Source: Pseudomonadales bacterium
Lineage (GTDB): Bacteria; Pseudomonadota; Gammaproteobacteria; Pseudomonadales; JAHRWD01
Direction: 5' to 3'
DNA length: 64,000 nucleotides
Assembly: GCA_029210125.1 (NCBI GenBank)
Contig: JARGPR010000001.1
Coordinates: 248,001 to 312,000, forward strand
The first letter of the stretch is position 1; the number at the start of each line of letters is the position of its first letter. Of this stretch, positions 14,486-62,744 are shown piece after piece. The notes beneath the pieces were generated by a model that saw only the letters and a list, made by a program, of their open reading frames with translations, searched no databases and was not told the DNA's origin. A program made the translations under genes and the position numbers.

Positions 14486-14896
14486 GCTAACAAATTTAAT
14501 ATTTTTTCTTCGGAAATCTTCTAGATAGCTGTTCAGATCTATTTATAGTTTCCGATTACTTTTCCTTTAATTCTATTCTTTTTAGCATTGCTTAAGCGAT
14601 GTTCAGGGCTCATTTTATATCCTCGTTTTGTGCAGGTTTTTGTCCCGTTTTTTGCTAGTTTTGATATTTTTGCTGGTCTGATTTATGGCGTGCTTGACGT
14701 GTTTTTGAGTCGGTTTTATGACACCGTTCTTTGCAAAAAATACCCACCGCTTTTTCTTAAACTTCTGTAAATAAAACCTAAATATTCCTGATGAGTCGCC
14801 GATATATTAGTTGGGAGCGGTAAATATCACATGTTGATATATCCGCTGAATATCAAAGTCCTGCTTTTAGCAGGCTGCTATATATAGGTAACTATC
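14486..14896 (+). other. Intergenic region flgL-fliC
   Basis: This gap is T-rich on the plus strand. An open frame of 60 codons (14588-14770) has no family resemblance and is probably not a gene. The right end carries the fliC sigma-28 promoter and a leader with a small hairpin, CCTGC-TTTTA-GCAGG (14860-14874), just upstream of the ribosome site. No clear terminator for flgL was seen. Confidence 0.6.
14779..14805 (+). promoter_or_regulatory. Sigma-28 (FliA) promoter of fliC
   Basis: TAAA-N15-GCCGATAT, one base from the consensus, with exact spacing. The predicted start near 14812 gives a leader of about 85 bases. Late-class, FlgM/FliA-controlled flagellin expression is expected. Confidence 0.9.
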
Positions 14897-16420
14897 ATGG
14901 CTTTATCCATTAATACCAATGTCTCATCTCTAAATGCACAGCGTAACCTGAATAACTCAGGTAACATGCAAAGTCAGGCGTTACAGCGTCTATCTTCTGG
15001 TTTACGAATTAACAGTGCACGGGATGATGCGGCGGGTCTTGCGATTTCAAACCGTTTAACTTCACAGATCAATGGTCTCAACCAGGCGACACGAAATGCT
15101 AATGACGGTATTTCACTGGCGCAAACCGCTGAGGGCGCACTTCAAGAGTCCACCAATATTCTTCAACGTATGCGGACTCTGGCTATTCAGTCTGCTAACG
15201 GATCAAATGGTTCAACCGAACGTAGAGCGCTTAACGATGAGGTCACTCAGCTTAAGTCAGAGCTTGATCGTATTGCGACCACCACTCGGTTTGGTAGCGA
15301 AAAATTATTGAGTGGAACATTTACTTCTAAATCATTTCAAGTGGGTGCAGAAGCGAATGAGGTTATTCGAGTCAGTATTAACTCAGCTCGGACCGCTGAT
15401 TTAGGTCAGATTAACTCGGTGGCTTACGCGACTCAGGTTAACTCGACTGATTCAGCGGCGGTAACAGCCGCTAACCTGGCAACTACCAATAATATCGCAG
15501 CTCAAACCCTGACATTTGCGGTCGATTCCCAGTCAACTACCGTGTCGGTTTCCGCCGGTGATTCAATGGGTACTATTGCTGACGCGATTAACGGCGCGGT
15601 TGGTGGTGTTACTGCGGATGCCAACTCGGGTGCTCGAATTACTCTCGGTAACGGTACCTCTTCTGGTGACACAGCGACACTCGCTATTAATGGCGTTTCA
15701 ATTGGTGCTGTTGATACCAGTGGTAACACAGCGGCCCAGACCGCGGCATTAACCACCGCGATTCAAAATACATCGAGTCTTTCTAACTTCACTGTAGTCG
15801 ATAACGGGACTTCGGTTGATATCTTGGATGAAACCGGTGATGACGTTACGGTTACCTTCAGTGCGGTAGCTGGCGATTCGACCGTGACAGTAAGTGCGCT
15901 TAATTATGATGGCACTACAATTGACGCGACGGATGGTGCTACCACACTAACTCAAGGTGGTAACGATAGTGTAAAAGTTACCGGTGATATCAAATTTACA
16001 ACCGCACTGCCATCTACATCCACATTGACGCTTCTTAGTTCCAATGGCTCTGGTAATTTCATGACGGGTACTACGGCACAAACCGGTACCATTACCGAAG
16101 AAACCGCTCGAATTAAAGATGTTGATATCTCTACCGTTAGTGGCTCCAACACCGCACTGGGTTTGATTGACTCGGCGATTGCTTCAATTGATTCAAGTCG
16201 AGCATCCCTTGGTGCGGTTCAAAACCGTATGCAATCTACCATTGCTAACCTTTCCAGTGTCTCAGAAAATGTATCGGCTTCGCGGTCACGTATTCTGGAT
16301 GCGGATTTCGCGGCGGAAACTGCGGCCATGACTAAAGCTCAAGTTCTGCAACAGGCAGGTATCTCTATCTTGAGTCAGGCTAATGCAGCACCACAACAAG
16401 TTCTGTCATTACTCCAGTAG
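14897..16420 (+). CDS. fliC: Flagellin FliC
   Basis: The filament subunit, 507 residues. The conserved N-terminal D0/D1 region ([40 protein letters not shown]) and C-terminal D1/D0 region ([40 protein letters not shown]) flank a variable, Ser/Thr/Gly/Ala-rich middle at about residues 165-410. That middle contains beta modules resembling the flagellin IN motif (for example [15 protein letters not shown]). It is the only flagellin gene in the window. The many Ser/Thr in the exposed middle make it a reasonable target for O-linked modification, but no modification can be read from sequence. Confidence 0.97.
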
Positions 16421-19886: not shown

Positions 19887-22800
19887 ATGACGACTTCAAA
19901 CCTGAAAATATTGGCCAATAGTAACCAAAAAGAGCCTGAGACGATAAAGGATATTGTTACACTGATTCAGTATGGAGACTACGATCTGGCTGATAATGCC
20001 ATTGATCGCCATCTGGTCGATAATGCCCATAATCCAGACTTAAATCATCTGAAAGGTTTGATTGCGTATAACCAGGGCCATCTTCAAAAAGCTGAAGAGT
20101 GGATCAAGAAAGCAATATTCATCAAGCCAGATGAAGCAAGTTACCACAATAATATTGGTAATATTTTCAAAGCGAACGGTGCTCTGAAGAAAGCCGAAGA
20201 GAGCTATCGAAGAGCTATGGAGCTGAACCCCAGCTCTCCGGATGCGATCAGTAATATTGGAACCATCTATCTTGCTGCGGATAACCCAGAATATGCGTTA
20301 ACCTTTTTTGATAGCGCTTTGGCCGTGCAGCCAGGGTATGCAGAAGCTCAAATTAATATGAGTTCCGCTTTGCTTAAGCTCGAACGTTATCAAGAAGTGA
20401 TCGAGCTGTGCGAAAAATTATCCGCTCGAAATATCGAACCACCTATTGTTTTTTCAAACTGGGGGCGTGCCTTAAAAGGTCGCGGTGACTTTTTTGAAGC
20501 GGTAGATCTTTTTGATCGTGCTGTTTCGTTATATCCAGAAGATCCGGATTTACATAATTTTCGGGGAGTTCTGTTACGCCTGATAGGCGATTTCGAAGAT
20601 GGATGGAAAGGCTATCAATGGGAACCCTATTCGACAGATGCCGCCAGGGTTATCTATGATCTGTCGATAGAAAGATGGCAGGGCCATTCTTTAACGGGCC
20701 GTACCCTGTTGATCTATGGTGAACAGGGTATTGGTGATGAAATCATGTTTGCCTCCTGTTTTGCGGAGCTTATTGCTCAGGCCGAATCGACATTTATCGC
20801 TTGCGAACCCCGGTTAGCGCCATTGTTTGAACGCTCATTTCCCAAGGCAACCATTCTTGCTGGTTATAATCTGGACCTGTTGAAAGATTATATTCGCAGC
20901 CACCGCATTGATCTGTGCTGCCCAATGGGTGATATACCCATTTATACAAGGAAACAGTTATCCGACTTTAAACACTCTTGTGCATATTTAACCCCTGAGT
21001 CGGCATCCGTTACCAAATGGCGGCAACGTTATGCAGAGCTTGGTAAAGGCCTGAAAATTGGCATCTCCTGGCTTGGCGGGAAAAGCCCTGTTCAACAGCG
21101 TACACGCTCAATACCGTTAAGCCACTGGATCGGTTTGTTTGACTGTACAAATGTTCAGTTCGTAAATATCCAGTACGGCGATCATGCGCAAAGTTTGCGT
21201 GATCTTAAAATGGAAACCGGTGTTGAAATTCACGATTGGCCGGATATCAATGGATTAACCGAGATGGATGAGTTTGCAGCAAAAGTGGCTGCATTGGACC
21301 TTGTGATATCGATCGATAACTCTACGGTGCATCTGGCAGCTTCCCTGGGGGTGGAAACATGGGTGATGTTACCCATGATTCCCGATTGGCGTTGGTTGCT
21401 TGATAGGGATGATTCGCCATGGTACTCCTCCGTTAGGTTATTTCGTCAGTCTATCGCTGGAGAATGGGATAAGGCATTACAACAGGTCATTGCGAAACTT
21501 AAAGAAAAAACCAAAGCGATTCCATCGTATCAACCCCAACCTGCAGCGCTATTTGTTAATGATACTAGCAACTGGTATCACTGGGGCTGTACAGTGACCA
21601 GCTCTGTGATCCGTCGGCGGTTGAAAGAGATTGGCTATGAAATTGATGCTATTCCAATTGAAAAAATTGTCAATATGCAGCCCTGTTTGGAGAAGCTTGA
21701 GGACCTAAACTCAGACTTGTTTTTCGAGAAATTTAGCCAAGCCAATCACGAGCTGGTAGATGCTCTGATGCAACATGATTTGATTATCATTAATGGTGAA
21801 GGTTCTCTGCACGGTACCAGTCCTACCTCAGTAAGTTTGTTGTATATAGCGTACGTGGCGAAGCTACGCTTTGGGAAAAATGTTCAAATTGTGAACCATT
21901 CTTGTTATCCACTGGGATCGAGTGAATGGCAGGATACCGTTGAATTTAATCTGTACAAACAAGTTTACGACGCAATCGATTATGTAGCGGTTCGCGAGCC
22001 CGTAAGTCAACGCCTTCTTACGGAAGGCGGTATTCATAGTAGTCAGAGTTTTGATTGCATGCCGTTATATATAGAAAGGTATGCAAACCAAATCGAAAAA
22101 ACCGATAGAGCGGGAGTTGTGTTGGCAGGCTCGGTTAGTTGGTTGCAGAGCTCTCTCGATCCGATCTCTGAGTTAGTAAATTATCTGAAAAGCCAGGATC
22201 ATGAAGTGGTTGTGCTGATTGGTGCTCGCAATAATATGGCTTCGGATGACGTGGCATTTGTGAACGAACTTTATGAAAAAATGAACGCTAATATCACCGT
22301 CCGTGTTGCCTCTTCCCTGAGGGAGTGGTTGCAAATTTTGGCAAGCACAAAGTTGCTTGTATCAGGTCGGTTTCATCATACGCTTGCGGCGGCTTTGCTC
22401 GACACGCCGTTCGTGCTACTAAACAGCAACACTCCCAAGCTGCAAGGTATTCTAGAGCTGATGGGCGGGGATGCTCCTATTGCATATGATGCTCCGGATC
22501 TGCTTAAAAGCCTGCGGGTAGCGGTGGATAAAAAACTTCAGGGAGGCCTGGCTGCACCGATTACAGCATCACAAAAACAGCAATTAATGGAGCTTGCCAA
22601 TGTTAACTTTGAGGCTGCGGAACACTATTTTCAAAAACTGATAAAAATGGATGATTCAGAAAGCCTGCAAGATATTGATGAGCTTTCCTCTGCTCCTGCT
22701 CCTGTACAAACCTCCCCGGACAGAAAGCTTGAAACCACAGAACATGGATTGTTGTTGTTTGATGACGATGAAAAAGTGGTTGTGCAATCGTTGCTGAAAT

Positions 22801-23306
22801 ATGGTGAATACGCCATTGGTATGCGTGAACTATTTTCACAGCTGCTTAGAGATGGCAGTGAGGTCGTTGAGTTTGGCTCCGGTATTGGAGTAACGACGGT
22901 TGAAATTTGTCGGCATGTCGGTGAAAGCGGCAGCGTTTGGGCTGAAAATAGAGAGCAACAGGAGTTTTTGTTGCTGTGCGCAAATCTCGCGCTAAATGAG
23001 ATCAACAACGTACAATTTTTTGATTCAGTTTCAGACATAGATTTACCGCCACGATGTGACATGGTTGTCCTCAACGATACACCGTGGACACCGGAGCTTG
23101 AAACTATTGTTACGAACAAGCTATCCAGTGATCGGCCGTTCATTATGGCGATTGGAGATATCGAAGGTATTGATGAATTAAGGAAGTACCCCGATTATAT
23201 GTTTGTTGAGTATTGGATAGATCTTGCTCGGCCAGACAATTTTAAAGGGGTTCCGGTTGAACCAGACGAATCTCAGATTTTGTGCATGGTGGGCGTGCCT
23301 TCCTAA
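19887..23306 (+). CDS. Multidomain TPR-glycosyltransferase-pyruvyltransferase-methyltransferase fusion
   Basis: A 1139-residue protein with no signal peptide and at least four parts. (1) About residues 35-240: TPR repeats (AEEWIKKAIFIKPDEASYHN, AEESYRRAMELNPSSPDAIS, ALTFFDSALAVQPGYAEAQI). (2) About 260-545: a TPR-associated GT9/heptosyltransferase-like domain (TLLIYGEQGIGDEIMFASCF; KIGISWLGGK; DLVISIDNSTVHLAASLGVE). (3) About 550-880: polysaccharide pyruvyltransferase (CsaB)-like, with IINGEGSLHG, VAVREPVSQRLL and LVSGRFHHTLAAALL. (4) About 960-1139: a SAM methyltransferase-like domain (VVEFGSGIGVTTVEICRHVG). Its place between fliT and fleQ suggests flagellin or cell-surface glycan modification; that is inference. 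Substrates are unknown. No visible nonulosonic acid pathway accompanies it. Confidence 0.8.
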   Translation: MTTSNLKILANSNQKEPETIKDIVTLIQYGDYDLADNAIDRHLVDNAHNPDLNHLKGLIAYNQGHLQKAEEWIKKAIFIKPDEASYHNNIGNIFKANGALKKAEESYRRAMELNPSSPDAISNIGTIYLAADNPEYALTFFDSALAVQPGYAEAQINMSSALLKLERYQEVIELCEKLSARNIEPPIVFSNWGRALKGRGDFFEAVDLFDRAVSLYPEDPDLHNFRGVLLRLIGDFEDGWKGYQWEPYSTDAARVIYDLSIERWQGHSLTGRTLLIYGEQGIGDEIMFASCFAELIAQAESTFIACEPRLAPLFERSFPKATILAGYNLDLLKDYIRSHRIDLCCPMGDIPIYTRKQLSDFKHSCAYLTPESASVTKWRQRYAELGKGLKIGISWLGGKSPVQQRTRSIPLSHWIGLFDCTNVQFVNIQYGDHAQSLRDLKMETGVEIHDWPDINGLTEMDEFAAKVAALDLVISIDNSTVHLAASLGVETWVMLPMIPDWRWLLDRDDSPWYSSVRLFRQSIAGEWDKALQQVIAKLKEKTKAIPSYQPQPAALFVNDTSNWYHWGCTVTSSVIRRRLKEIGYEIDAIPIEKIVNMQPCLEKLEDLNSDLFFEKFSQANHELVDALMQHDLIIINGEGSLHGTSPTSVSLLYIAYVAKLRFGKNVQIVNHSCYPLGSSEWQDTVEFNLYKQVYDAIDYVAVREPVSQRLLTEGGIHSSQSFDCMPLYIERYANQIEKTDRAGVVLAGSVSWLQSSLDPISELVNYLKSQDHEVVVLIGARNNMASDDVAFVNELYEKMNANITVRVASSLREWLQILASTKLLVSGRFHHTLAAALLDTPFVLLNSNTPKLQGILELMGGDAPIAYDAPDLLKSLRVAVDKKLQGGLAAPITASQKQQLMELANVNFEAAEHYFQKLIKMDDSESLQDIDELSSAPAPVQTSPDRKLETTEHGLLLFDDDEKVVVQSLLKYGEYAIGMRELFSQLLRDGSEVVEFGSGIGVTTVEICRHVGESGSVWAENREQQEFLLLCANLALNEINNVQFFDSVSDIDLPPRCDMVVLNDTPWTPELETIVTNKLSSDRPFIMAIGDIEGIDELRKYPDYMFVEYWIDLARPDNFKGVPVEPDESQILCMVGVPS

Positions 23307-34009: not shown

Positions 34010-35305
34010 GTGAATAAAATGCACGCCCTGATTGGGAGCGTTCTACTGCTGTTACCCGTGTCCGCTTTTGCTGACGCACCACAACTGAACGGTGCGGATA
34101 CCGGCTGGATATTGGTATCGACCGCTTTAGTATTGTTTATGACCCTGCCGGGTTTGGCACTTTTTTATGGTGGGCTGGTGCGGGTTAAAAACGTGCTGTC
34201 GGTCTTGATTCAGTGTTTTGCTATTACGGGGCTGGTGACCATTCTTTGGGTGATTCTTGGTTACAGTTTGGCCTTTGGTGAAGGTAATGCTTTCATCGGC
34301 GACTTTAGCAGAGTATTTATGAGTGGTATCACGCGGGACACATTGTCTGGCACCATCCCCGAATCGTTGTTTGCCTTATTTCAGATGACCTTCGCTATTA
34401 TTACGCCGGCGTTGATCGTAGGTGGTTTCGCCGAGCGCATGCGGTTTTCATCGATGCTACTATTTTCCGCACTATGGTTATTTCTGGTCTATGTACCGAT
34501 TACTCATTGGGTTTGGGGTGGCGGCTGGTTGGGCCAAATGGGGCTGTATGATTTCGCTGGAGGTACAGTGGTACACATTACCGCAGGTGTAGCGGCACTG
34601 GTGGCAGCTATTATGCTAAAACCCCGGATTGGTTTTGGTTCGACGCCGTTACCACCGCACAACATGACCATGGTAATGACCGGAGCAGGGATGCTATGGG
34701 TCGGTTGGTTTGGTTTTAATGGCGGTAGCGCATTAGCGGCTGACGGTAACGCTGCGATGGCGATGTTCGCAACTCATGTTTCGGCATCAATGGGTGCATT
34801 AACCTGGATGTTTATGGAATGGAAGCGGTTTGGTAAGCCCAGTGCTCTGGGTGTGGCTACCGGAATGGTGGCCGGTTTGGGAACCATTACCCCTGCTTCC
34901 GGTTTTGTCGGTATTGGCGGCGCAGTGGTGATTGGGTTACTGGCGGGTTACGTTTGTTTTAATGCCACCATGTATATCAAACAAGTATTAAAAATTGACG
35001 ATTCACTTGATGTATTTCCAGTTCATGGCGTTGGTGGGATACTCGGTACCCTACTAGCGGGCGTATTCGCATCGACAGAACTGGGTTTGTTTAGTGGTTT
35101 TGGTTTTGCCGATGGTATTACCAGCATGGCCGGCCAGGTAAAGGTCCAGCTTATAGGTATCGCTGCTACAGCCATTTATACAGCGATACTCACCTGGTTT
35201 ATTTTAAAAGTAGTTGGACTGGTTTCAGATCTTCGGGTTAGCAAAGATGAAGAGGTTGAAGGTCTTGATCTCGTGCTGCACGAAGAGAGGGGTTACGATC
35301 TATAA
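34010..35305 (+). CDS. amt: Ammonium transporter (Amt family)
   Basis: Amt channels move ammonium/ammonia across the inner membrane. The 431-residue protein begins with a signal-like segment (MNKMHALIGSVLLLLPVSAF, ADAPQLNGADTGW) and continues with the usual eleven-helix Amt core: LALFYGGLVRVKNVLSVLIQ, THWVWGGGWLGQMGLYDFAG, GWFGFNGGSALAADGNAAMA, DVFPVHGVGGILGTLLAGVF. The pore His residues (in GGTVVHITAG and FPVHGVGG) are present. GTG start with a strong AAGGAG. No glnK lies beside it, unlike the usual glnK-amtB pair. It has its own terminator and no obvious link to the flagellar genes. Confidence 0.95.
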   Translation: MNKMHALIGSVLLLLPVSAFADAPQLNGADTGWILVSTALVLFMTLPGLALFYGGLVRVKNVLSVLIQCFAITGLVTILWVILGYSLAFGEGNAFIGDFSRVFMSGITRDTLSGTIPESLFALFQMTFAIITPALIVGGFAERMRFSSMLLFSALWLFLVYVPITHWVWGGGWLGQMGLYDFAGGTVVHITAGVAALVAAIMLKPRIGFGSTPLPPHNMTMVMTGAGMLWVGWFGFNGGSALAADGNAAMAMFATHVSASMGALTWMFMEWKRFGKPSALGVATGMVAGLGTITPASGFVGIGGAVVIGLLAGYVCFNATMYIKQVLKIDDSLDVFPVHGVGGILGTLLAGVFASTELGLFSGFGFADGITSMAGQVKVQLIGIAATAIYTAILTWFILKVVGLVSDLRVSKDEEVEGLDLVLHEERGYDL

Positions 35306-35401
35306 AGTTTGATCAAGAAATGCTTTTCCCGGTTTACAGCTGAGTATCGTTAGCGGCTATTTTTGCCGTAACTCAAGATAGCTGTATAGCTCGTGATTTT
35401 G

Positions 35402-35435
35402 AAAGCCCATTACTTTTTGTAGTGGGCTTTTTTTT
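35402..35435 (+). terminator. Rho-independent terminator after amt
   Basis: AAAGCCCATTAC - TTTTT - GTAGTGGGCTTT followed by a run of T residues: a 12-base-pair stem with one T-G wobble and a strong T tract. It is the clearest terminator in the window and separates amt from the chemotaxis cluster. Confidence 0.93.
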
Positions 35436-35499
35436 GCCTGAGAAACCCATTAAATCACTATAAGAACAAATAATTGACCATTTTACGTATAAAGCAGGC

Positions 35500-35526
35500 T
35501 AAAAGTAGTCAATTTTTTGCCGTTTT
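35500..35526 (+). promoter_or_regulatory. Possible sigma-28 promoter of the second chemotaxis cluster (weak)
   Basis: TAAA-N15-GCCGTTTT. The -35, spacing and GCCG agree with sigma-28, but the last half of the -10 is poor. It lies about 135 bases before the first STAS gene. Low confidence. Confidence 0.35.
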
Positions 35527-35661
35527 TTAGTGGCATTAATTTAGTTGTCCATTTTGTTAAAAAAAAGCTTTCTTTAGTGGAAAGCTGAAAGTGAGGTGCT
35601 AGTTTTAAGTCATAAATAAGCTGACCTTAAGAGATTAGTATCTGAACACAGGCCTTAATAT

Positions 35662-35937
35662 ATGAAGCTAGATAGTGATTTATCCATTCGGAATGCTGAA
35701 TTATTTTATTCGTCCTGTGAAAGTGAATATGCAAAGGGTGGAGATGTATCTATAGATGCTAGTGACGTTGATCGTATCGACACCACTATTCTCCAAATCA
35801 TCACAGCCTTAAAAATGAGGCTGGAGTTTGAAGATCTGCATCTAAATATTACCGAACCGTCGGCGGAATTTATCCATTCAGCTGAATTACTAGGGCTAGC
35901 AAGCATTCTAGAATTAACCGTCAGCTCCAGTTCATAA
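35662..35937 (+). CDS. STAS-domain protein of the second chemosensory cluster
   Basis: A 91-residue single STAS (anti-anti-sigma-like) domain: VSIDASDVDRIDTTILQIIT is the strand-helix segment that normally carries the phosphorylated Ser/Thr, here Thr. It precedes cheY by 14 bases, so it is probably translated in the same operon. STAS genes are found at the head of some gammaproteobacterial chemosensory clusters, but their role there is poorly known. The partner kinase or phosphatase is not visible in the window. Confidence 0.8.
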   Translation: MKLDSDLSIRNAELFYSSCESEYAKGGDVSIDASDVDRIDTTILQIITALKMRLEFEDLHLNITEPSAEFIHSAELLGLASILELTVSSSS

Positions 35938-35951
35938 GGAGAATATTACAA

Positions 35952-36314
35952 GTGTCTATCGTATTAGCCGTAGATGATTCAGCTTCAATGCGCCAAATGG
36001 TGTCCTTTACTCTACAAACCGCCGGTTTTGACGTGATTGAAGCGGTCGATGGTGTGGATGCTTTGGAGAAAGCCAAGGGCCAAGAAGTGGATGTTGTGGT
36101 TTCCGATGTCAATATGCCCAATATGGATGGGATTACATTGATCGCAGAGCTTCGTGCATTACCTCAATACAAATTTACACCCATGTTGATGCTGACAACC
36201 GAGTCCGGTGGAGAGAAAAAATCACAAGGGAAAGCAGCCGGCGCCACTGGATGGATTATTAAACCGTTTAACCCTGAACAACTGGTTAAAACGGTCAAAA
36301 AAGTACTGGGATAA
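35952..36314 (+). CDS. cheY: CheY-type single-domain response regulator (second cluster)
   Basis: A 120-residue stand-alone receiver: VLAVDDSASMRQ (acidic pocket), phosphoacceptor Asp52 in VVSDVNMPNMDG, MLTTESGG (switch Thr) and IIKPFNPEQL (Lys). GTG start follows AAGGAG. It differs clearly from the other CheY at 58019 (SDVNMPNMDG against [10 protein letters not shown]), so the two probably receive phosphate from different CheA proteins. Whether this one binds FliM or another target cannot be told from sequence. Confidence 0.93.
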   Translation: MSIVLAVDDSASMRQMVSFTLQTAGFDVIEAVDGVDALEKAKGQEVDVVVSDVNMPNMDGITLIAELRALPQYKFTPMLMLTTESGGEKKSQGKAAGATGWIIKPFNPEQLVKTVKKVLG

Positions 36315-36316
36315 TC

Positions 36317-38407
36317 ATGTCTATCGATATGGAGCAGTTTCATCAAGTGTTCTTTGAGGAGAGTCTCGAAGGATTAGATGTCATGGAATCATCCTTAATG
36401 GAACTTCAGGAAGGGAAAGCCGACCCGGAAGTGGTGAATTCGATATTTCGAGCGGCCCATTCGATAAAGGGTGGCAGCGCGACATTCGGGTTTTCTGCAG
36501 TTGCTGAGTTTACCCACGTGCTAGAAACCTTGCTGGATGAAGTTCGCGAGGAAACCCGAGAGATTACCTCAGAAATGATCGATTTACTGCTTCAGTCGGT
36601 AGATTGTCTTCGAGATCAAATGAGCTCCCTGGAACAGGGTGAATCGGCGGATTCTGAAAGAAGTCATAACCTCAAAAATAGCTTTCTTAGAATACTGGAA
36701 TCTGATGATCGGATCGAGTCAAGCAGCGCCAGCATAGCTCTCCATAAGGAAGCGGGCCTAACTGAAGGGTGGTCGATATTTTTCAAGCCGGAAATTGAAA
36801 TTGTACAGTCCGGCAATGAACCTCTGCGAATGTTTAGAGAGTTGTCTCAACTAGGTCGGCTCAAAACAACCGCACACTTAGATGCACTGCCCACGTTTAC
36901 GGCATTAGAGCCGGAAAACTGTTACCTGTGTTGGGAAATGGAATTGTATGGGAAGGATATTTCTGAAGCTCAAATAAAGGAAGTGTTTGAATGGGTTGAA
37001 GATGAATCCGAAATCCGGATTAAACCACTCACACCTAACACTGATTCTAACTTAAAAGACAATGTGGGTTCTGAACAACTGTCAAACTCGATAAATTCTG
37101 AGCTAAATACTATACCAACGGAAGAAGGGGTAAATAGTCCCGAAAAAAATGAAGCCAAGTCGGCTTCATTTTCAAAGCGTGAATCAGCCTCTATTAGAGT
37201 TGGAATCGATAAGGTTGATGAGCTGATTAATACAGTGGGTGAGCTGGTAATTACTCAATCGATGCTGAGTGCAGTTGGGCAGGATTTTCAAATTGGTCAA
37301 TTGGCGAGGCTACAGGAAGGTCTAAATCAACTCGCGCAGAATACACGGGAGTTACAGGAAAGTGTGATGAGGATCCGAATGTTACCGATCAGCTTTTCTT
37401 TTAACCGGTACCCACGGATGATCAGGGACCTCAGTAAACAACTCGATAAAAAAGTCGAATTGATTATGGTCGGAGAACAGACCGAACTGGATAAAACGGT
37501 ACTTGAAAAAATAGGTGACCCACTAACCCATCTAGTTAGAAACTCCATGGATCATGGAATTGAAAGCCCAGAGGAACGATTGCAATCAGGTAAACCTGAA
37601 ACTGGAATTATCACATTAAAAGCCTCCCATCAGGGTGGCAATATTGTGATTGAAATTAGTGATGATGGTAAGGGCCTTGATAGAGAAAAAATCCTGGAAA
37701 AAGCGGTTGAAAAAGGGTTACAAGAACCGGGCGATACGCTCACCGACGAACAAGTTTATCAACTAATTTTTAGTCCCGGGTTTTCAACTGCAGACACGGT
37801 CAGCGATGTTTCCGGTCGAGGTGTTGGAATGGACGTTGTGCGTAGAAATATCCAGGAGCTCGGTGGCAGCATTAGCATCAGATCGATCCATAGAACAGGT
37901 TCAACGATAACCATTCGGTTGCCATTAACGTTGGCTATTTTGGATGGTCAACTGGCCCAGGTTGGCGATCAGATTTTCGTATTTCCACTGGTCTCCATTA
38001 TCGAATCACTCGAAATGCGTGGCGTCGAAGTAAGTAAAGCTGCGGGCGGCTGCGATCTAATTAAATTACGAGAGGATTATATTCCCGTCGTATATTTAGC
38101 AGAGGTATTTGGTATCTCAGATCAGCCCGTCCTATTAGACGAATCACTGCTAGTAGTGGTGGAAAGTAACAATGAAAAAATTGGCGTAGTCATTGATGAT
38201 CTACTAAGTCAGCAACAGATTGTAATCAAAAGCCTCGAAGAAAATTACAAAAAAGTAGAGGGCATTTCAGGTGCAACTATTCTTGGTGATGGCCGGGTTG
38301 CACTGATTACTGATATCGGGGAGCTGATTCGGCTGTCCGGAGCGATGCATATAAATAAGATGGAGGCAGGGAATGTCATGTTCCCCGCCGGCCCACAAGC
38401 AGCATGA
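36317..38407 (+). CDS. cheA: CheA histidine kinase (second cluster)
   Basis: A 696-residue CheA: P1 phosphotransfer domain with His48 in AAHSIKGGSATFGF; a short P2-like region (about 150-235); P3 dimerisation (VDELINTVGELVITQSMLSA); P4 kinase with LVRNSMDHGIESPEERL, ISDDGKGLD and GRGVGMDVVRRN; and a P5 CheW-like C-terminus (FPLVSIIESLEMRGVEVSKA). It is 2 bases after cheY and 9 before cheW. It is one of two full-length CheA proteins in the window and is more like the type grouped with cheD and a PAS receptor. Confidence 0.96.
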   Translation: MSIDMEQFHQVFFEESLEGLDVMESSLMELQEGKADPEVVNSIFRAAHSIKGGSATFGFSAVAEFTHVLETLLDEVREETREITSEMIDLLLQSVDCLRDQMSSLEQGESADSERSHNLKNSFLRILESDDRIESSSASIALHKEAGLTEGWSIFFKPEIEIVQSGNEPLRMFRELSQLGRLKTTAHLDALPTFTALEPENCYLCWEMELYGKDISEAQIKEVFEWVEDESEIRIKPLTPNTDSNLKDNVGSEQLSNSINSELNTIPTEEGVNSPEKNEAKSASFSKRESASIRVGIDKVDELINTVGELVITQSMLSAVGQDFQIGQLARLQEGLNQLAQNTRELQESVMRIRMLPISFSFNRYPRMIRDLSKQLDKKVELIMVGEQTELDKTVLEKIGDPLTHLVRNSMDHGIESPEERLQSGKPETGIITLKASHQGGNIVIEISDDGKGLDREKILEKAVEKGLQEPGDTLTDEQVYQLIFSPGFSTADTVSDVSGRGVGMDVVRRNIQELGGSISIRSIHRTGSTITIRLPLTLAILDGQLAQVGDQIFVFPLVSIIESLEMRGVEVSKAAGGCDLIKLREDYIPVVYLAEVFGISDQPVLLDESLLVVVESNNEKIGVVIDDLLSQQQIVIKSLEENYKKVEGISGATILGDGRVALITDIGELIRLSGAMHINKMEAGNVMFPAGPQAA

Positions 38408-38416
38408 GGGTAAGCA

Positions 38417-38968
38417 ATGAACACCGGTGAACACGTAGATAACGAAGCAAATGGACTGTTGCAGCAGGGTGAGCATGGCGTCGATCAGTATTTGACCTTT
38501 GTAATGGAGGATGATGAATACGGTGTTGATATTTTGTGTGTTCAGGAAATTAGAGGTTGGGAAGATACCACTCCAATTCCAAATGCGCCCAGCTTTGTAA
38601 AAGGGGTGATCAATCTACGTGGAACCATTGTTCCCATTATTGATATTCGACAATGCTTCAACATGCAGGAGACCAACTACGGGCCACTTACTGTAGTTAT
38701 CGTACTTCGCGCAAATCATGAGGCTGGAAGCCGAACCATTGGAATAGTGGTCGATGCGGTTTCAGACGTACACTCATTTTCTGAATCCGATATGCATAAC
38801 CCTCCTAGCCTTGGAGATGCTGTAAATACTTCTTATATAAAGGGGTTGGCGCAGGCGAGTACAAATATGGTTATTTTGTTAGATATCGATAAAGCCCTTA
38901 ACTTTGATGAGTTACAGGGGTTTATTGATGTGCAGTCGAAGGCGGTAGCTGCGCCCATGAGTTCGTGA
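38417..38968 (+). CDS. cheW: CheW coupling protein
   Basis: CheW bridges receptors and CheA. The 183-residue protein shows the CheW fold: YLTFVMEDDEYGVDILCVQE, IPNAPSFVKGVINLRGTIVP and IDIRQCFNM, VDAVSDVHSFSESDM, and KGLAQASTNMVILLDIDKAL. It lies between cheA and the receptor gene. It is the only CheW in the window; the flagellar CheA at 59222 would depend on CheV or on a CheW gene beyond the right edge (in Pseudomonas cheW follows motD). Confidence 0.95.
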   Translation: MNTGEHVDNEANGLLQQGEHGVDQYLTFVMEDDEYGVDILCVQEIRGWEDTTPIPNAPSFVKGVINLRGTIVPIIDIRQCFNMQETNYGPLTVVIVLRANHEAGSRTIGIVVDAVSDVHSFSESDMHNPPSLGDAVNTSYIKGLAQASTNMVILLDIDKALNFDELQGFIDVQSKAVAAPMSS

Positions 38969-39057
38969 AAAGTAAGTTGCAAAGTCGTTATTCTATACAC
39001 CTAAATTGAATATATTCCCAACCCCACTTAATAACAGGTAACAGCAGGAAATCACCC

Positions 39058-41181
39058 ATGAAAATATTTGATGCATTTGATATCAAACAGCAATTATTGT
39101 TTGCAGTATTTTTACCGGTAGCGGGGTTTTCAGTATTTATCTATTCGCACAACGAAATGACCTATTCGTTTACCGGGCCGTTACTATTTTTACTGCTAAC
39201 CATCGTGGGTAGCCTGACGTTACTATATAGCATCATGGGTATGCTAAGTGGTACGGAGGGAGGTGACAGTATAAGGCAACAAGAAGCGTTGAAGGTGTGT
39301 GATACCAATATCATGATTGCCGATGCCGATAACAACATTGTCTACATGAATGATGCGGTGCAGGAAATGATGCGGGATGCGGAATCAGATATTAAAGAAG
39401 ACTTGCCGAATTTCAATTCCAATGATCTGGTTGGAAAAAATATTGACCTGTTCCACAAGAACCCTTCTCATCAACGCATGATGCTGGAGAAACTGCGGGA
39501 TACGTATAAAACCAAAATCACGGTGGGCGGCCGTACCTTTTCCCTGATAGCTAGCCCTATTATCGATGCAGCTCAAACCCGTATCGGTACCGTGGTTGAA
39601 TGGGATGATGTCACTGCTGAACTGGCGAGACAGATAAAAGATGAACAATTGGCAGCAGAGAACCTGCGTGTTAAGCAGGCACTGGATTCAGTTTCCACCA
39701 ATGCCATGATTGCCGATGCCGAGAATAATATTGTTTATATGAATGATGCAGTTCTGGAGATGATGCGGGTCGCGGAATCAGATATCAAAGGAGACCTGCC
39801 GAATTTTAATTCCAATGATCTGGTTGGACAAAATATCGATCTCTTCCACAAGGATCCCTCTCATCAGCGGATGATGTTGGAAAAACTGCGGGATACTTAT
39901 AGTACTTCGATCACTGTTGGTGGCCGTACCTTCTCTCTGGTAGCCAATCCTATCATTGACGATGGTCAAAACCGTATCGGTACCGTAGTTGAATGGGCGG
40001 ATAAAACAGTGGAGCTTGAGGTTGAGGTGGAAATCGATCAACTCATAACTGCGGCGGTTGCAGGCGATCTTTCAAAACGATTGTCGGTCGAAGGTAAGCA
40101 GGGATTTACTCTTAATCTATCCGAAGGATTGAACCAGTTGATGGGCATTTGCTCAGAAGTGATCACCGATGTATATGAGGTGATGACCGAGGTATCTAAG
40201 GGTTCATTAACTAAAAAAATGGAACGCGAATACGACGGTGAATTTGATGGACTGAAAACAGCCATTAACGATACGGTGAGTAAATTGACCGAGATTATTG
40301 CTGGAATTCGTGAATCTGCAATCACTGTCAGCGGTGGTGCCCAGGAAATTTCACAAGGCAATACAGATCTTAGTCAGCGTACCGAAGAGCAAGCTTCGTC
40401 ATTGGAAGAAACCGCATCCAGCATGGAAGAGATGACCAGTACGGTTAAACAAAGTGCTGAAAACGCAATGGAGGCAAATAGCCTTGCCTCAGCGGCCAAA
40501 GATAAAGCTCAGCGCGGAGGAGAGGTGGTTAGACATGCGGTTACAGCCATGGAAGCGATCAGTGATTCCAGCAAAGAGATTGCCGACATCATCGGTGTGA
40601 TTGACGAGATCGCTTTCCAGACTAACTTGCTCGCATTGAACGCTGCTGTTGAAGCAGCAAGGGCGGGAGAGCAAGGTCGAGGATTTGCGGTAGTAGCTGG
40701 TGAAGTCAGGAGCCTCGCAGGCAGGTCAGCGGACGCAGCCAAGGATATTAAAGCGCTAATTCGAGATAGCGAAACCAAGGTTGCTGAGGGCGCTCAGTTA
40801 GTGAATGAATCAGGACAAACCCTGGAACAAATTGTCGAGGCAGTCGAAAAAGTTAGCACCATGGTAAGTGACATTAGTGAAGCGACTAATGAGCAAACGA
40901 ACGGCATCTCGCAAGTAAATATTGCAGTGTCTCAGATGGATGAAATGACTCAACAAAACGCAGCGTTAGTAGAGCAGGCAACTGCAGCAAGTGAAGCGAT
41001 GGCCGAGCAAGCTCAGGGTATGTCAACCATGGTTAGTTTCTTTACCCTGCCACGAAACGCAACAGCGATAGCTGCAGGAGCCAACGTATCGGTCGATAGC
41101 ACACGGCCTAGATTGTCAAATAACACTTCAAATTCTAACCTTTCATTTAGCTCTGGCGGTGACGAGTGGGAGGAGTTTTAG
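39058..41181 (+). CDS. Methyl-accepting chemotaxis protein with tandem PAS domains
   Basis: A 707-residue receptor. Two close membrane helices (about residues 12-30 and 40-62) leave almost no periplasmic loop, so sensing is probably cytoplasmic. Two PAS domains follow (about 82-195 and 213-325); they are near copies ([18 protein letters not shown] against [18 protein letters not shown]), offset by 131 residues. A HAMP-like region ([36 protein letters not shown]) precedes the signalling domain with the hairpin tip [20 protein letters not shown]. The C-terminus ends EWEEF, the x-W-x-x-F type of CheR-docking pentapeptide. PAS ligand (haem, flavin or none) is unknown. Confidence 0.94.
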
Positions 41182-41291
41182 AAGCGCCAGCTGAGCAGAG
41201 GCTAGTATATTGACAAGAGTAGTTGATTAAGATTTTTTTAAAATTTGTTAAGTGCAGTGCCGCACATAAATATGCGGTATGAGGTTGTAAT

Positions 41292-42146
41292 ATGTTAAAT
41301 ACCGCTCAACCTATCAAGATGAGTGATCGCGAATTTCCAATGAGTGATCACAATTTCGATACAATCTCAAAAATTGCTTATCAGTACACTGGAATTAAGC
41401 TTCCTGAACAAAAGCGGCAAATGATTTACAGTCGTATAGCGCGACGAATCCGAGCCCTAAATTTGCAAAATTTCGACCAATATTGTGAACTTATTGGTGA
41501 TGATAAACATGTTGAATTCAACGAATTTATTAACTCGATCACCACTAATCTAACCTCGTTTTTTCGAGAGAATCATCATTTTGAATATCTCGAATCGACT
41601 ATTTTACCACACCTAACGAAGGTTCATGGAACTGACCGTCGAATACGAGTGTGGTCAGCCGGCTGCTCTACAGGCGAAGAGCCCTATTCAATTGCATTAA
41701 CGCTGCTTAAAGCTTTTGGTGCTTCCTCGGGTTGGGATCTAAAAATACTGGCAACGGACCTTGATTCAAACGTCGTAACCACCGGAAGAAATGGAATATA
41801 CGCTGCAGATCGGCTATCTGGATTGAATCCCGCACTGGTCAAAAAGTGGTTTAGCCGTACTGCAGATTCAAGCCGCTACGTTGTAGCAGATGAAGTAAAA
41901 AAACTAATTCAATTTAATCGGTTAAACCTTCTTGATAATTGGCCGATGAGAAACAAATTCGACATTATATTTTGCCGAAATGTCGTGATCTATTTCGATA
42001 AGCCTACCCAGCAAAAGTTATTTGACCGATACGCAGAGCAACTTAATGATGGTGGCTATCTAATAATAGGTCACTCAGAGAGTTTGCATAACCTGACCGA
42101 TCGATTTGAATCTATCGGTAAAACGATTTATCGGAAGGATAATTGA
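41292..42146 (+). CDS. cheR: CheR methyltransferase (second cluster)
   Basis: A second 284-residue CheR: N-terminal helical domain (YQYTGIKLPEQKRQMIYSRI), SAM-binding core (IRVWSAGCSTGEEPYSIALT; ILATDLDSNVV; FDIIFCRNVVIYFDKPTQQK; LIIGHSESLHNL). It should methylate the adjacent receptor, whose C-terminal EWEEF is a docking site for pentapeptide-dependent CheR proteins. A GAGG ribosome site precedes the ATG. It differs strongly from the cheR at 2547. Confidence 0.95.
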   Translation: MLNTAQPIKMSDREFPMSDHNFDTISKIAYQYTGIKLPEQKRQMIYSRIARRIRALNLQNFDQYCELIGDDKHVEFNEFINSITTNLTSFFRENHHFEYLESTILPHLTKVHGTDRRIRVWSAGCSTGEEPYSIALTLLKAFGASSGWDLKILATDLDSNVVTTGRNGIYAADRLSGLNPALVKKWFSRTADSSRYVVADEVKKLIQFNRLNLLDNWPMRNKFDIIFCRNVVIYFDKPTQQKLFDRYAEQLNDGGYLIIGHSESLHNLTDRFESIGKTIYRKDN

Positions 42147-42150
42147 TGGT

Positions 42151-42801
42151 ATGGCGCCGGCTCAATTCGACACCGATGATCATCATATCCCAAAAGCGAC
42201 ACCTGGTTTTGAAGGTATAAATCGCTATTGGGACAAAAAAATGCAGATGCCCGCGGCGAAGATAATGCCGGGTGAATTTTATGTCAGCGCGCATGGAGAA
42301 ATGATTGTCACTGTTTTAGGTTCCTGTATCTCTACCTGTATACGGGATCGTAAATTGGGAATTGGTGGTATGAATCATTTTATGCTTCCCATGCAAGGAA
42401 AATATTCCGGTAGCTGGGGTAACGATGTTGATAGCTCTGCCACCCGTTATGGCAATTGGGCGATGGAATATCTGATTAATGCTATTTTAAATCTCGGTGG
42501 AAACAAAAAAAACTTTGAAGTTAAAGTGTTCGGAGGTGGTAAGGTACTCGCGAATGCTACTGATGTAGGTAGCAATAACATTGAGTTTGTAACGGAGTAC
42601 CTTAGGTCTGAGATGCTAATAACCGTTGCTTCGGATGTAGGCGGTATCTACCCTAGAAAAGTCCTGTATTTTCCTGACACAGGTAAAGTAAAGGTGAGAC
42701 GTTTGATTCATGTTACTAATGAAACCATTATAGATCGAGAGAATGTTTACAGGAAAACTATCGATGCCACACCGAACGAAGGCAGTATTGAATTGTTTTA
42801 G
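42151..42801 (+). CDS. cheD: CheD, receptor glutamine deamidase
   Basis: CheD deamidates receptor glutamines. The 216-residue protein has the catalytic Cys59 in VLGSCISTC and His76 in GGMNHFMLP, plus EVKVFGGGKVL. The ATG at 42151 starts five bases after the cheR stop; the open frame reaches back into cheR, but that part (NLSVKRFIGRI) is an out-of-frame reading of cheR. The N-terminal 40 residues before GEFYVSAHGEM are longer than in minimal CheD. Confidence 0.94.
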   Translation: MAPAQFDTDDHHIPKATPGFEGINRYWDKKMQMPAAKIMPGEFYVSAHGEMIVTVLGSCISTCIRDRKLGIGGMNHFMLPMQGKYSGSWGNDVDSSATRYGNWAMEYLINAILNLGGNKKNFEVKVFGGGKVLANATDVGSNNIEFVTEYLRSEMLITVASDVGGIYPRKVLYFPDTGKVKVRRLIHVTNETIIDRENVYRKTIDATPNEGSIELF

Positions 42802-42869
42802 TATGCCATTGTTTGAAGCCGAAGATATGGTGACACAGTGATCGCGAGCGTAAATGCAGAGATTTTTTG

Positions 42870-43928
42870 ATGATTAAGGTATTTATCGTTGACGACTCCG
42901 CTTTGATTCGAGCGTTACTTACGGAGATCTTAAGTAAAGCGGATGATATTGAGGTGGTGGGTACAGCGCCCGATCCACTGGTAGCTCGTGAAAAAATAAA
43001 ACAAACAAATCCTGATGTGCTCACATTGGATATTGAGATGCCTCACATGGATGGTATCTCTTTTCTGAAAAATTTGATGCGATTGCGCCCGATGCCAGTG
43101 GTTATGATTTCAACACTCACTGAAAAGGGCGCGCCAGCTACACTGGAAGCGCTAGCATTAGGGGCTGTGGATTTTGTCGGCAAGCCAAAAACAGATTTGA
43201 ATAATGGTCTTCTTTCGTTTTCCGAGCAGATTACGGAAAAGGTTAGAGCTGCAGCCCAAGCTAACATCCATGCGCTTGAAAAAGTACCGCCCACCAGGGC
43301 GAAAGTGGTAGCCTCCAGCGTCCCTGTCCGGAAAAAAGTATATCCGAAGCCTGGTCATTTGGTTGCGATTGGAGCGTCAACCGGCGGTACCGAGGCGATT
43401 AAGACCGTCCTTATTGAGCTACCCGAAAATACACCGCCCATCGTGCTTGCTCAGCATATTCCGGCAAATTTCAGCAAATCTTATGCACAACGGCTTGATG
43501 ATAATTGTGCAATTAGCGTGTTTGAAGCGGAGCATCAACAGCCTGTAGAGCCAGGTTGTGCCTATCTTGCACCCGGAGATTTCCACCTTAGAATTTCTAA
43601 GCATAAGTCTGGATATGTTTGTATGCTTGATCAAAAAGAGAAAGAAAGTCGACACCGGCCATCAGTAGATGCGTTATTTAATTCTGTTGCTGGGTTAGGA
43701 AAATGTCACGCGACCGGGATGTTATTAACGGGTATGGGTATGGACGGAGCACGGGGTCTATTGGCTATGAAAAAGGCGGATTGTTTGACGCTGGTTCAGG
43801 ATGAGGCTTCATCAGTAGTGTGGGGTATGCCAGGCTCTGCGGTTAAAATCGATGCGCAAACTGAAATTGTCTCTCTCCATAAAATGGCATTAAAAATAGT
43901 TGAAAATTGCATGTTTTCAAAGAAATAA
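42870..43928 (+). CDS. cheB: CheB methylesterase (second cluster)
   Basis: CheB removes receptor methyl esters and deamidates when phosphorylated. The 352-residue protein has a receiver (FIVDDSALIR, Asp54 in LTLDIEMPHMDG) and a C-terminal methylesterase domain with GASTGGTEAI (active Ser), LAQHIPANFSKSYA (His) and LTGMGMDGARGL (Asp). ATG 42870 is chosen; a TTG three bases earlier is in frame. It completes the mcp-cheR-cheD-cheB adaptation set. Confidence 0.95.
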   Translation: MIKVFIVDDSALIRALLTEILSKADDIEVVGTAPDPLVAREKIKQTNPDVLTLDIEMPHMDGISFLKNLMRLRPMPVVMISTLTEKGAPATLEALALGAVDFVGKPKTDLNNGLLSFSEQITEKVRAAAQANIHALEKVPPTRAKVVASSVPVRKKVYPKPGHLVAIGASTGGTEAIKTVLIELPENTPPIVLAQHIPANFSKSYAQRLDDNCAISVFEAEHQQPVEPGCAYLAPGDFHLRISKHKSGYVCMLDQKEKESRHRPSVDALFNSVAGLGKCHATGMLLTGMGMDGARGLLAMKKADCLTLVQDEASSVVWGMPGSAVKIDAQTEIVSLHKMALKIVENCMFSKK

Positions 43929-61718: not shown

Positions 61719-62744
61719 ATGCCCATTAAAATCCTCATTGTTGACGATTCCCAATTTTTTCGTAAAAGACTTTGCGAACTGTTTGAGGGTCATCCAGGTA
61801 TATGCGTAGTTGCAACCGCAGTTAATGGTGAAGAGGCTTTGGCTAAGGTCGAAGCCCACCGTCCGGATCTGATCACCATGGATTACGAAATGCCAGTTAT
61901 GGATGGTGTCACGGCTGTAAGGCGGATCATGGGTCGTTACCCAACGCCAATTCTGATGATCTCGGCTTTAACCTATGAGGGTGCATCCGTGACGTTAGAT
62001 GCACTTGAGGCCGGGGCGTTGGATTTTGTTGCAAAATTAGGCAATGACGGAAGCAATCCTTTTTTAGAAAAAAAACTTCTTTGTGAGCAGGTTTTGCAGC
62101 TGGTATCCAGTAGTAAAGCTGGGCCTGTCCATACCTTTCCTACATCGCAAAAAATAAAAGTAGATATAAAACAAACCCCCTGTGAACTAGTGGTAATTGG
62201 TGCTTCGACGGGAGGGCCAGTAGCTGTACAGGAGTTGCTATCAAAACTTCCCGGTGACTTCCCTCTGCCGATAGTTGTTGCGATTCATATGCCTGAAAAT
62301 TTCACCCAGGCTTATGCAAACCGGCTGGCAAGCAGTTGCAATATTGAGGTAAAAGAAGCTGAGGACCAAGATCAGCTTATTCCTGGTCGAGCATTGATCG
62401 CACCCGGTGGAAAACTATTGAAAATTGGTAAGAAGTATATGGGATTTGTGACACTGGAGCGCAAGAAAAAGGAATTTAATTTTTCACCTTCGGTGGACTA
62501 TTTGTTTGAGAGTGCAGCCAACTCATATTCACAAAAAGTATTGGCGATTGTGTTAACAGGCATGGGTTCAGACGGTCGGATCGGTGCAAGAAAACTGCAC
62601 CAAAAAAAGGCCACCATTTGGGCTCAGGATGAAGAAAGCAGTTTGATATACGGTATGCCCAGCGTGATTGCTAAAGATAAGCTCGCTAGTCAAGTGTTAA
62701 ATATTGACGAGATGGTTTTGGGATTAAAGAGTCTAAATGGATAA
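61719..62744 (+). CDS. cheB: CheB methylesterase (flagellar)
   Basis: A 341-residue CheB: receiver (ILIVDDSQFFRKRLCELFEG; Asp55 in ITMDYEMPVMDG; ALDFVAKLG) and methylesterase domain with GASTGGPVAV (active Ser), IHMPENFTQAYA (His) and LTGMGSDGRIGA (Asp). It differs from the cheB at 42870 and pairs with the upstream CheA. It overlaps motC by eight bases, so translation of the two is probably coupled. Confidence 0.95.
   Translation: MPIKILIVDDSQFFRKRLCELFEGHPGICVVATAVNGEEALAKVEAHRPDLITMDYEMPVMDGVTAVRRIMGRYPTPILMISALTYEGASVTLDALEAGALDFVAKLGNDGSNPFLEKKLLCEQVLQLVSSSKAGPVHTFPTSQKIKVDIKQTPCELVVIGASTGGPVAVQELLSKLPGDFPLPIVVAIHMPENFTQAYANRLASSCNIEVKEAEDQDQLIPGRALIAPGGKLLKIGKKYMGFVTLERKKKEFNFSPSVDYLFESAANSYSQKVLAIVLTGMGSDGRIGARKLHQKKATIWAQDEESSLIYGMPSVIAKDKLASQVLNIDEMVLGLKSLNG

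Follow-up and report, generated by a model that had tools for sequence, protein, structure and literature searches.

A proposed flagellin glycosyltransferase fused to pyruvyltransferase-like and methyltransferase-like parts in a flagellar locus of a Pseudomonadales bacterium

The DNA analyzed here (the window, a stretch of 64,000 nucleotides from a Pseudomonadales bacterium) contains a flagellar locus in which one open reading frame (ORF) encodes a 1139-residue protein. Its parts are, in order, tetratricopeptide repeats (TPR), a glycosyltransferase (GT) domain of the GT9 fold, a PF04230 pyruvyltransferase-like domain, and a class I S-adenosylmethionine (SAM)-methyltransferase-like tail. The protein is probably a cytoplasmic flagellin O-glycosyltransferase of the FlmG type that also adds pyruvate, and probably a methyl group, to the sugar it transfers. 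This reading is supported by the folds of the four parts (the last weakly), by conserved residues that match the phosphoenolpyruvate (PEP) site of CsaB, and by repeated linkage of related fusions to flagellin. Flagellin binding, sugar transfer, sugar identity, pyruvyl and methyl transfer, and the order of the steps we infer.

The closest model is FlmG of Caulobacter crescentus. Two-hybrid tests show binding of flagellin by its TPR part, its GT part alone fails to restore modification, and FlmG suffices for flagellin glycosylation in cells making pseudaminic acid (PMC7591256). By analogy, the TPR part of the four-part protein would bind freshly synthesized flagellin ahead of its export, the GT9 fold would put a sugar on flagellin serine or threonine, the pyruvyltransferase part would use PEP to place a pyruvate ketal on the protein-bound sugar, and the C-terminal part would use SAM to methylate either the sugar or the carboxylate of the pyruvate. 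All of these steps, in a presumed order and with a presumed donor sugar, would precede flagellin export.

The first-pass annotation of this DNA, made from the letters alone, had suggested a one-protein machine that makes and decorates a flagellin glycan, with the TPRs as its scaffold. Fold, active-site conservation, and gene neighborhoods uphold a glycan enzyme, but because no part for sugar-nucleotide synthesis was found in the protein, it probably attaches and decorates the sugar and does not make it. The TPRs are present, and by comparison with FlmG (PMC7591256) they are better read as a putative flagellin-binding part than as a mere scaffold. A fuller version is possible and is offered tentatively, in which a complete protein-glycan line on one polypeptide holds flagellin, attaches a neutral sugar, makes it acidic with a pyruvate ketal from PEP, and caps it with a methyl group. 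Pyruvylation by yeast Pvg1 mimics sialylation (review PMC6801904), so pyruvate may replace an acidic sugar.

Parts of the protein

19887–23306, + strand: whole four-part ORF, ATG start, 1139 aa; holds the only PF04230 match of its genome
19959–20591, + strand: TPR repeats, about residues 25–235, proposed flagellin-binding part (Pfam TPR_2 2.8e-25, TPR_1 5.1e-23)
20607–21536, + strand: GT-B glycosyltransferase domain of the GT9 fold, residues 241–550 (structure model, 3tov alignment)
21537–22631, + strand: polysaccharide pyruvyltransferase-like domain PF04230, residues 551–915 (Pfam 4.7e-17)
21993–21995, + strand: R703 (REPVS), matching CsaB R148 by motif order (CsaB known by its published residues, its sequence unaligned)
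22368–22376, + strand: R828-x-H830 (SGRFHH), matching CsaB R306/H308 and the RLH motif of Pvg1 (motif order, Pvg1 profile match)
22437–22439, + strand: K851 (SNTPK), matching CsaB K328 by spacing (CsaB sequence unaligned)
22632–22745, + strand: linker between pyruvyltransferase and methyltransferase (low-confidence model region)
22746–23303, + strand: class I SAM-methyltransferase-like tail, residues 954–1139, VVEFGSGIG at 993–1001 (profiles, Foldseek)
14897–16420, + strand: flagellin, 507 aa, proposed substrate (Pfam Flagellin_N 3.5e-44)

The ORF has exactly the coordinates, strand, and length first annotated, and all motifs quoted in that annotation are present in the protein. Profile searches of the window protein placed the TPRs, with strong Pfam scores, and PF04230 above their cut-offs, and GT9 and methyltransferase below theirs. 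Because of these two low scores, residues 228–1139 were modeled from a 16-row alignment (whole-model predicted template modeling score, pTM, 0.49). Confidence in the second and third parts is mostly 65–95 in ten-residue blocks (predicted local distance difference test, pLDDT), and both are predicted to have transferase-type folds, GT9 in the second and GT-B in the third.

The GT part carries GEQGIGDE at residues 278–285 and SIDNSTVH at residues 475–482. Its PF01075 (GT9) score is 18.6 bits against a 22-bit cut-off (E 0.0013, spanning only 35 residues), and the same cut-off is passed by relatives at loci L044 (22.8), L075 (22.6), and L074 (35.3, two GT copies). Model residues 266–545 superimpose on the solved GT9 enzyme of Veillonella parvula (3tov; Z 19.3, root-mean-square deviation 3.1, 263 residues aligned), so the predicted fold supports the weak sequence call and the GT9-like domain first annotated. 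The part differs from GT9 enzymes in being attached to TPRs and in falling below both the Pfam GT9 cut-off and the NCBIfam heptosyltransferase cut-offs; its weak NCBIfam matches, far below cut-off, are lipopolysaccharide (LPS) heptosyltransferases.

The third part matches PF04230 (PS_pyruv_trans) at residues 575–847 with 63.2 bits against a cut-off of 25.3. With its GT-B fold and the motifs GEGSLHG and SGRFHH, it agrees with the pyruvyltransferase-like domain proposed earlier, while lying below the CsaB equivalog cut-off (TIGR03609, 1.3e-17, 64.1 against 213.1 bits). For PEP binding by CsaB, R148, H308, and K328 proved critical, with R306 suggested in addition by docking (PMC10435577). The four matching residues are kept in 14 of the 15 fusion rows of alignment A2 and in 23 of 23 rows of alignment A4, which includes seven PF04230 proteins at 19–25% identity and omits L045, L075, L076, L083, and L081 (all five in A2) as well as L054, L058, and L062. 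A wide profile run against PDB sequences gave three matches, the first of them yeast Pvg1 (5ax7), with SGRFHH on DRLHA; at E 0.13 this match is suggestive and not significant. A PDB sequence search with a three-row pyruvyltransferase profile gave no useful match. The best fold rows were uridine diphosphate (UDP)-N-acetylglucosamine 2-epimerases (Z about 22), which indicates a predicted GT-B fold and not a function; Pvg1 (5ax7) was not among the best 50 rows of either fold search, which is no evidence against the assignment.

The linker and the start of the tail (residues 926–1025) have pLDDT below 50. In a species of the same genus, the linker holds an Asp-Thr-Thr run coded by a 9-base repeat (L022 1501–2202, L005 1–130), and the gene is split between contigs L005 and L022, which both end in this repeat. 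Linker length may vary between strains because whole-unit slippage of a 9-base repeat would keep the frame.

The tail of the window protein scores below cut-off for CbiT (1.7e-6) and TRM5 (2.6e-4). The same-genus tail reaches 1.7e-8 for CbiT and passes the Pfam cut-off for TRM5 (1.6e-7, 31.9 against 28 bits). Searches with the tail model matched 3e05 (Foldseek, E 1.5e-6) and gave a best VIA Z of 8.8, and nearly all of the best 50 rows are named as methyltransferases. The tail is thus weakly supported as class I SAM-methyltransferase-like, as annotated, though the window profiles stay below cut-off. For FkbM (TIGR01444/PF05050), the same-genus copy scores 13.5 against a cut-off of 37.7 bits and the window tail gave no listed match; two stand-alone relatives of the tail (L018 and L020) are FkbM.

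Relatives and inheritance of the fusion

An assembly or frame artefact was ruled out because the reading frame is uninterrupted on a 519-kb contig (of a 3.13-Mb genome, 99.84% complete) and the same parts recur in a genome of the same genus (66–68% identity). The join of parts is not chance, since the four-part copy recurs in that genus and the first three parts occur in the same order in 13 further fused proteins. A phage or plasmid gene was not supported either: in a search with residues 372–1139, 103 plasmid and three phage records matched, none covering more than 80% of the query, and in the matches listed (20 of the 103 plasmid rows and all three phage rows) only the GT part matched. In the viral-contig scan, the pyruvyltransferase part had no relative.

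At 1e-10, the model of the pyruvyltransferase part had matches in 9 of the 390 genomes from the order, 7 of 369 from the class, and 3 of 398 from the phylum, each count including the own genome. Named genomes yielded 20 loci, of which nine are fused TPR-GT-pyruvyltransferase proteins (L043–L046, L048–L051, and L053). The remaining 11 comprise L047, where the pair is split, and 10 PF04230 genes that stand alone, are broken, or are doubtful (L052, L054–L062). With the window protein and L074, L075, L076, L081, and L083, the fused proteins examined number 15; L042, L068–L070, L077, and L079 were not counted as fusions, and TPR-GT-only matches are also outside the count.

In the same-genus genome, the gene is broken between two contigs, one piece adjoining fliS/fliD and the other fleQ, which matches the layout of the window; presumably the two pieces are one gene. 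Only three of the 15 fusions have a methyltransferase tail: the window protein, the same-genus protein (L043/L022), and L046. The other 12 are tail-less (nine by Pfam scan; L045, L076, and L083 by length, ending with the pyruvyltransferase part). L046 is distant and lies in a flagellar locus, and its tail is Methyltransf_23 (3.3e-6), without BLASTP similarity to the window tail; the methyltransferase tail was therefore probably gained twice. The annotated four-part fusion is real, but the more widely shared unit is TPR-GT-pyruvyltransferase, and the form with the window-type methyltransferase was seen only in two species of one genus.

Trees of 18 GT parts and 18 pyruvyltransferase parts have four starred groups in common and no starred conflict (window with L043; L048 with L049; L050 with L051; L044 with L045 and L083). 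Neither tree resolves its deep branches, and both contain several long rows. In L074 (5145–13876), the relative is a doubled TPR-GT-TPR-GT-pyruvyltransferase protein of 1707 aa. On the opposite strand it is followed by two similar genes that carry NDQYENYPYP close to the N-terminus (the first matches Methyltransf_12, 6.1e-19), and then by fliS. In L052 (3724–7068), a stand-alone pyruvyltransferase relative directly follows genes that look like ATP-binding cassette transporters (by eye, from ORF starts); its genome, of 1.4 Mb, has no Flagellin_N match.

Flagellar linkage and competing explanations

Upstream of the four-part gene are flagellin, FlaG, FliD, FliS, and, where fliT would be expected, a small ORF (no Pfam match; labeled FliT by position only), and downstream is fleQ, so the annotated location between filament chaperones and fleQ is confirmed by neighboring gene matches. 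The survey of neighborhoods proposed with that annotation gave flagellin or FliS nearby in 10 of the 15 fusions (window, L043, L046, L050, L051, L053, L074, L075, L076, and L081), L074 having FliS only, close to a contig end. In L050, L051, L075, and L076, the fusion gene stands directly between flgL and flagellin. Because the genomes are related, these ten placements are not ten independent events. In three genomes (L080, L047, and L078), TPR-GT and pyruvyltransferase are separate neighboring genes, and in L080 these lie between flgL and a fliD-flagellin group. Parts that are adjacent in some genomes and fused in others are a recognized sign of joint function.

A location between filament chaperones and fleQ would also suit a protein whose main task is to regulate or chaperone flagellar assembly by way of flagellin or of FleQ, which is encoded next to it. 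GmaR of Listeria is such a flagellar regulator and is also a glycosyltransferase. We regard this explanation as very improbable, since the four fusion genes between flgL and flagellin are not beside fleQ and several catalytic folds with conserved sites would be needless for binding alone.

Several findings weigh against a role in flagellin glycosylation. Five of the 15 fusions (L044, L045, L083, L048, and L049) have no flagellar genes nearby within the DNA seen, and L044, L045, and L083, which form the Zhongshania group, have a flgL-flagellin site without the fusion gene, which instead adjoins an AraC-type regulator (Pfam in L044; similar ORFs in L045 and L083). Flagellin_N matches occur in 14 of the 15 fusion-holding genomes, the L048 genome being the one without, and in 19 of the 22 genomes with any match; since 291 of the 390 sampled genomes of the order (75%) have a match anyway, its presence alone is weak support, and because FlgL matches too, these counts reflect flagellar genes and not flagellin alone. 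A promoter scan gave no signal above shuffles (8 sites, shuffle mean 8.0). The comparison with FlmG was one of layout and published description and carries no claim of homology. The tail, folded alone with FkbM-like relatives, gave a poor model (pLDDT 57, pTM 0.62), and five stand-alone tail relatives (of 15 further genomes with matches) have no flagellar gene nearby. L081 lies at a flagellin locus, yet its pyruvyltransferase part has none of the four PEP-site residues. Finally, NeuB (PF03102) has no match in the 99.84% complete own genome, with Caulobacter vibrioides as a positive control, so the donor must differ from the pseudaminic acid used by FlmG (PMC7591256).

The fusions away from flagellar genes raise the question of another cell-surface glycan, LPS or exopolysaccharide, as the acceptor, with the flagellar location accidental. 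The characterized pyruvyltransferases CsaB and WbbZ have a wall polymer and an O antigen as acceptors (PMC10435577, PMC10629545), and the LPS heptosyltransferases among the weak matches of the GT part point the same way. Flagellin or filament-chaperone placement in ten of the 15, the absence of a second PF04230 match from the genome, and the TPR-GT order, which is the known FlmG layout, make this explanation improbable.

A different division of labor would retain a flagellin glycosyltransferase and change its extra parts, so that PF04230 adds a second sugar or contributes to structure or specificity, or the methyltransferase acts on lysine of the flagellin protein (FliB-like). The third part is of GT-B type with UDP-sugar enzymes as its best structural rows, L081 keeps this part after loss of the PEP-site residues, and the best family scores of the tail are to precorrin and tRNA methyltransferases, not FkbM. 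The PEP-site residues are nevertheless matched in 14 of the 15 fusion rows and PF04230 is well above cut-off. The own genome has one flagellin (the other Flagellin_N match is FlgL), which has only seven Lys; residues 171–420 hold three of these and 78 Ser/Thr, which argues against lysine methylation. We consider this alternative unlikely, though less so than the other two, and prefer a FlmG-type transferase with pyruvylation.

The branch leading to L081 is very long for the pyruvyltransferase part (7.62) and 0.94 for the GT part. In L081 (8695–14901), the fusion gene has as neighbors two cytidylyltransferase-like genes, a gene resembling that of 3-dehydroquinate synthase (Pfam), and an ORF that looks like a short-chain dehydrogenase/reductase (by eye). 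Possibly a cytidine monophosphate (CMP)-sugar pathway replaces pyruvylation there.

The absence of NeuB also argues against pseudaminic or sialic acid as the added sugar, and a nonulosonic-acid transferase was rejected on this ground. PF01973 (Maf) gave no match in the own genome, in a search whose positive controls were archaea only. C. crescentus is described as having no Maf (PMC7591256).

Known systems and other features of the window

In both FlmG and the four-part protein, a TPR part at the N-terminus precedes a GT-B transferase, but FlmG has 596 aa and two parts (PMC7591256) and the window protein 1139 aa and four. Flagellin is the demonstrated substrate of the former and the proposed substrate of the latter. 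With CsaB, Pvg1, and WbbZ, the third part has in common PF04230, a GT-B fold, and residues matching the PEP-binding R, R-x-H, and K of CsaB (PMC10435577, PMC10629545). It differs from them in its fusion to a TPR-glycosyltransferase, in its score below the CsaB equivalog cut-off, and probably in its acceptor, which would be a protein-bound sugar and not a wall polymer or O antigen.

Flag-2 loci of Enterobacterales contain pfam04230 and methyltransferase genes, and the authors suggest methyl and pyruvyl groups on flagellin glycans (PMC6993521). The available text describes these as separate proteins, with no TPR-GT-pyruvyltransferase fusion, whereas in the window they are fused. In two other flagellin papers, "pyruvylate" refers, in the text available, only to the PseI step (PMC5109656, PMC7874193). 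No published report of a TPR-GT-pyruvyltransferase fusion was found among the papers listed, including in the available parts of PMC12645811, PMC11231755, and PMC5835511; most subscription papers and preprints lay outside this search. TPR-GT flagellin transferases and separate pyruvyltransferase genes in flagellin loci are thus already known, and within the literature searched their fusion is new.

As a rule, flagellin glycosylation draws on a sugar pathway, a transferase, and distinct enzymes for decoration; in this protein a likely flagellin-binding part is joined to three catalytic ones. With a single gene and a single flagellin, the glycan and the reaction order can be tested directly. If the proposed function is correct, bacteria without nonulosonic-acid synthesis would have an acidic, sialic-acid-like filament surface, pyruvate would be added on a protein-bound sugar and not built into a free sugar, and, within the literature searched, no pyruvylated flagellin glycan would have been attributed to an enzyme before. 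Such a protein would represent another route to an acidic flagellar sugar, broaden the FlmG class, which has been little explored, and serve as a one-gene tool for adding pyruvylated sugars to a protein within the cytoplasm. The reading also suggests a role for this family, in which proteins may carry only TPR labels.

Other features of the window concern its regulation and layout. A terminator scan gave four sites against a shuffle mean of 4.2. A sigma-28-like pattern has three matches in the window, none before the four-part gene, and at least three matches occurred in 4 of 100 shuffles; one match (14779–14805, three mismatches) lies about 90 bases before flagellin. The flagellar genes are split by an insert at 34010–43928, between fliJ and fliK, which holds an ammonium transporter and a chemotaxis set (CheY-like, CheA, CheW, a methyl-accepting chemotaxis protein, CheR, and CheB), and a second CheB is encoded at 61719–62744.

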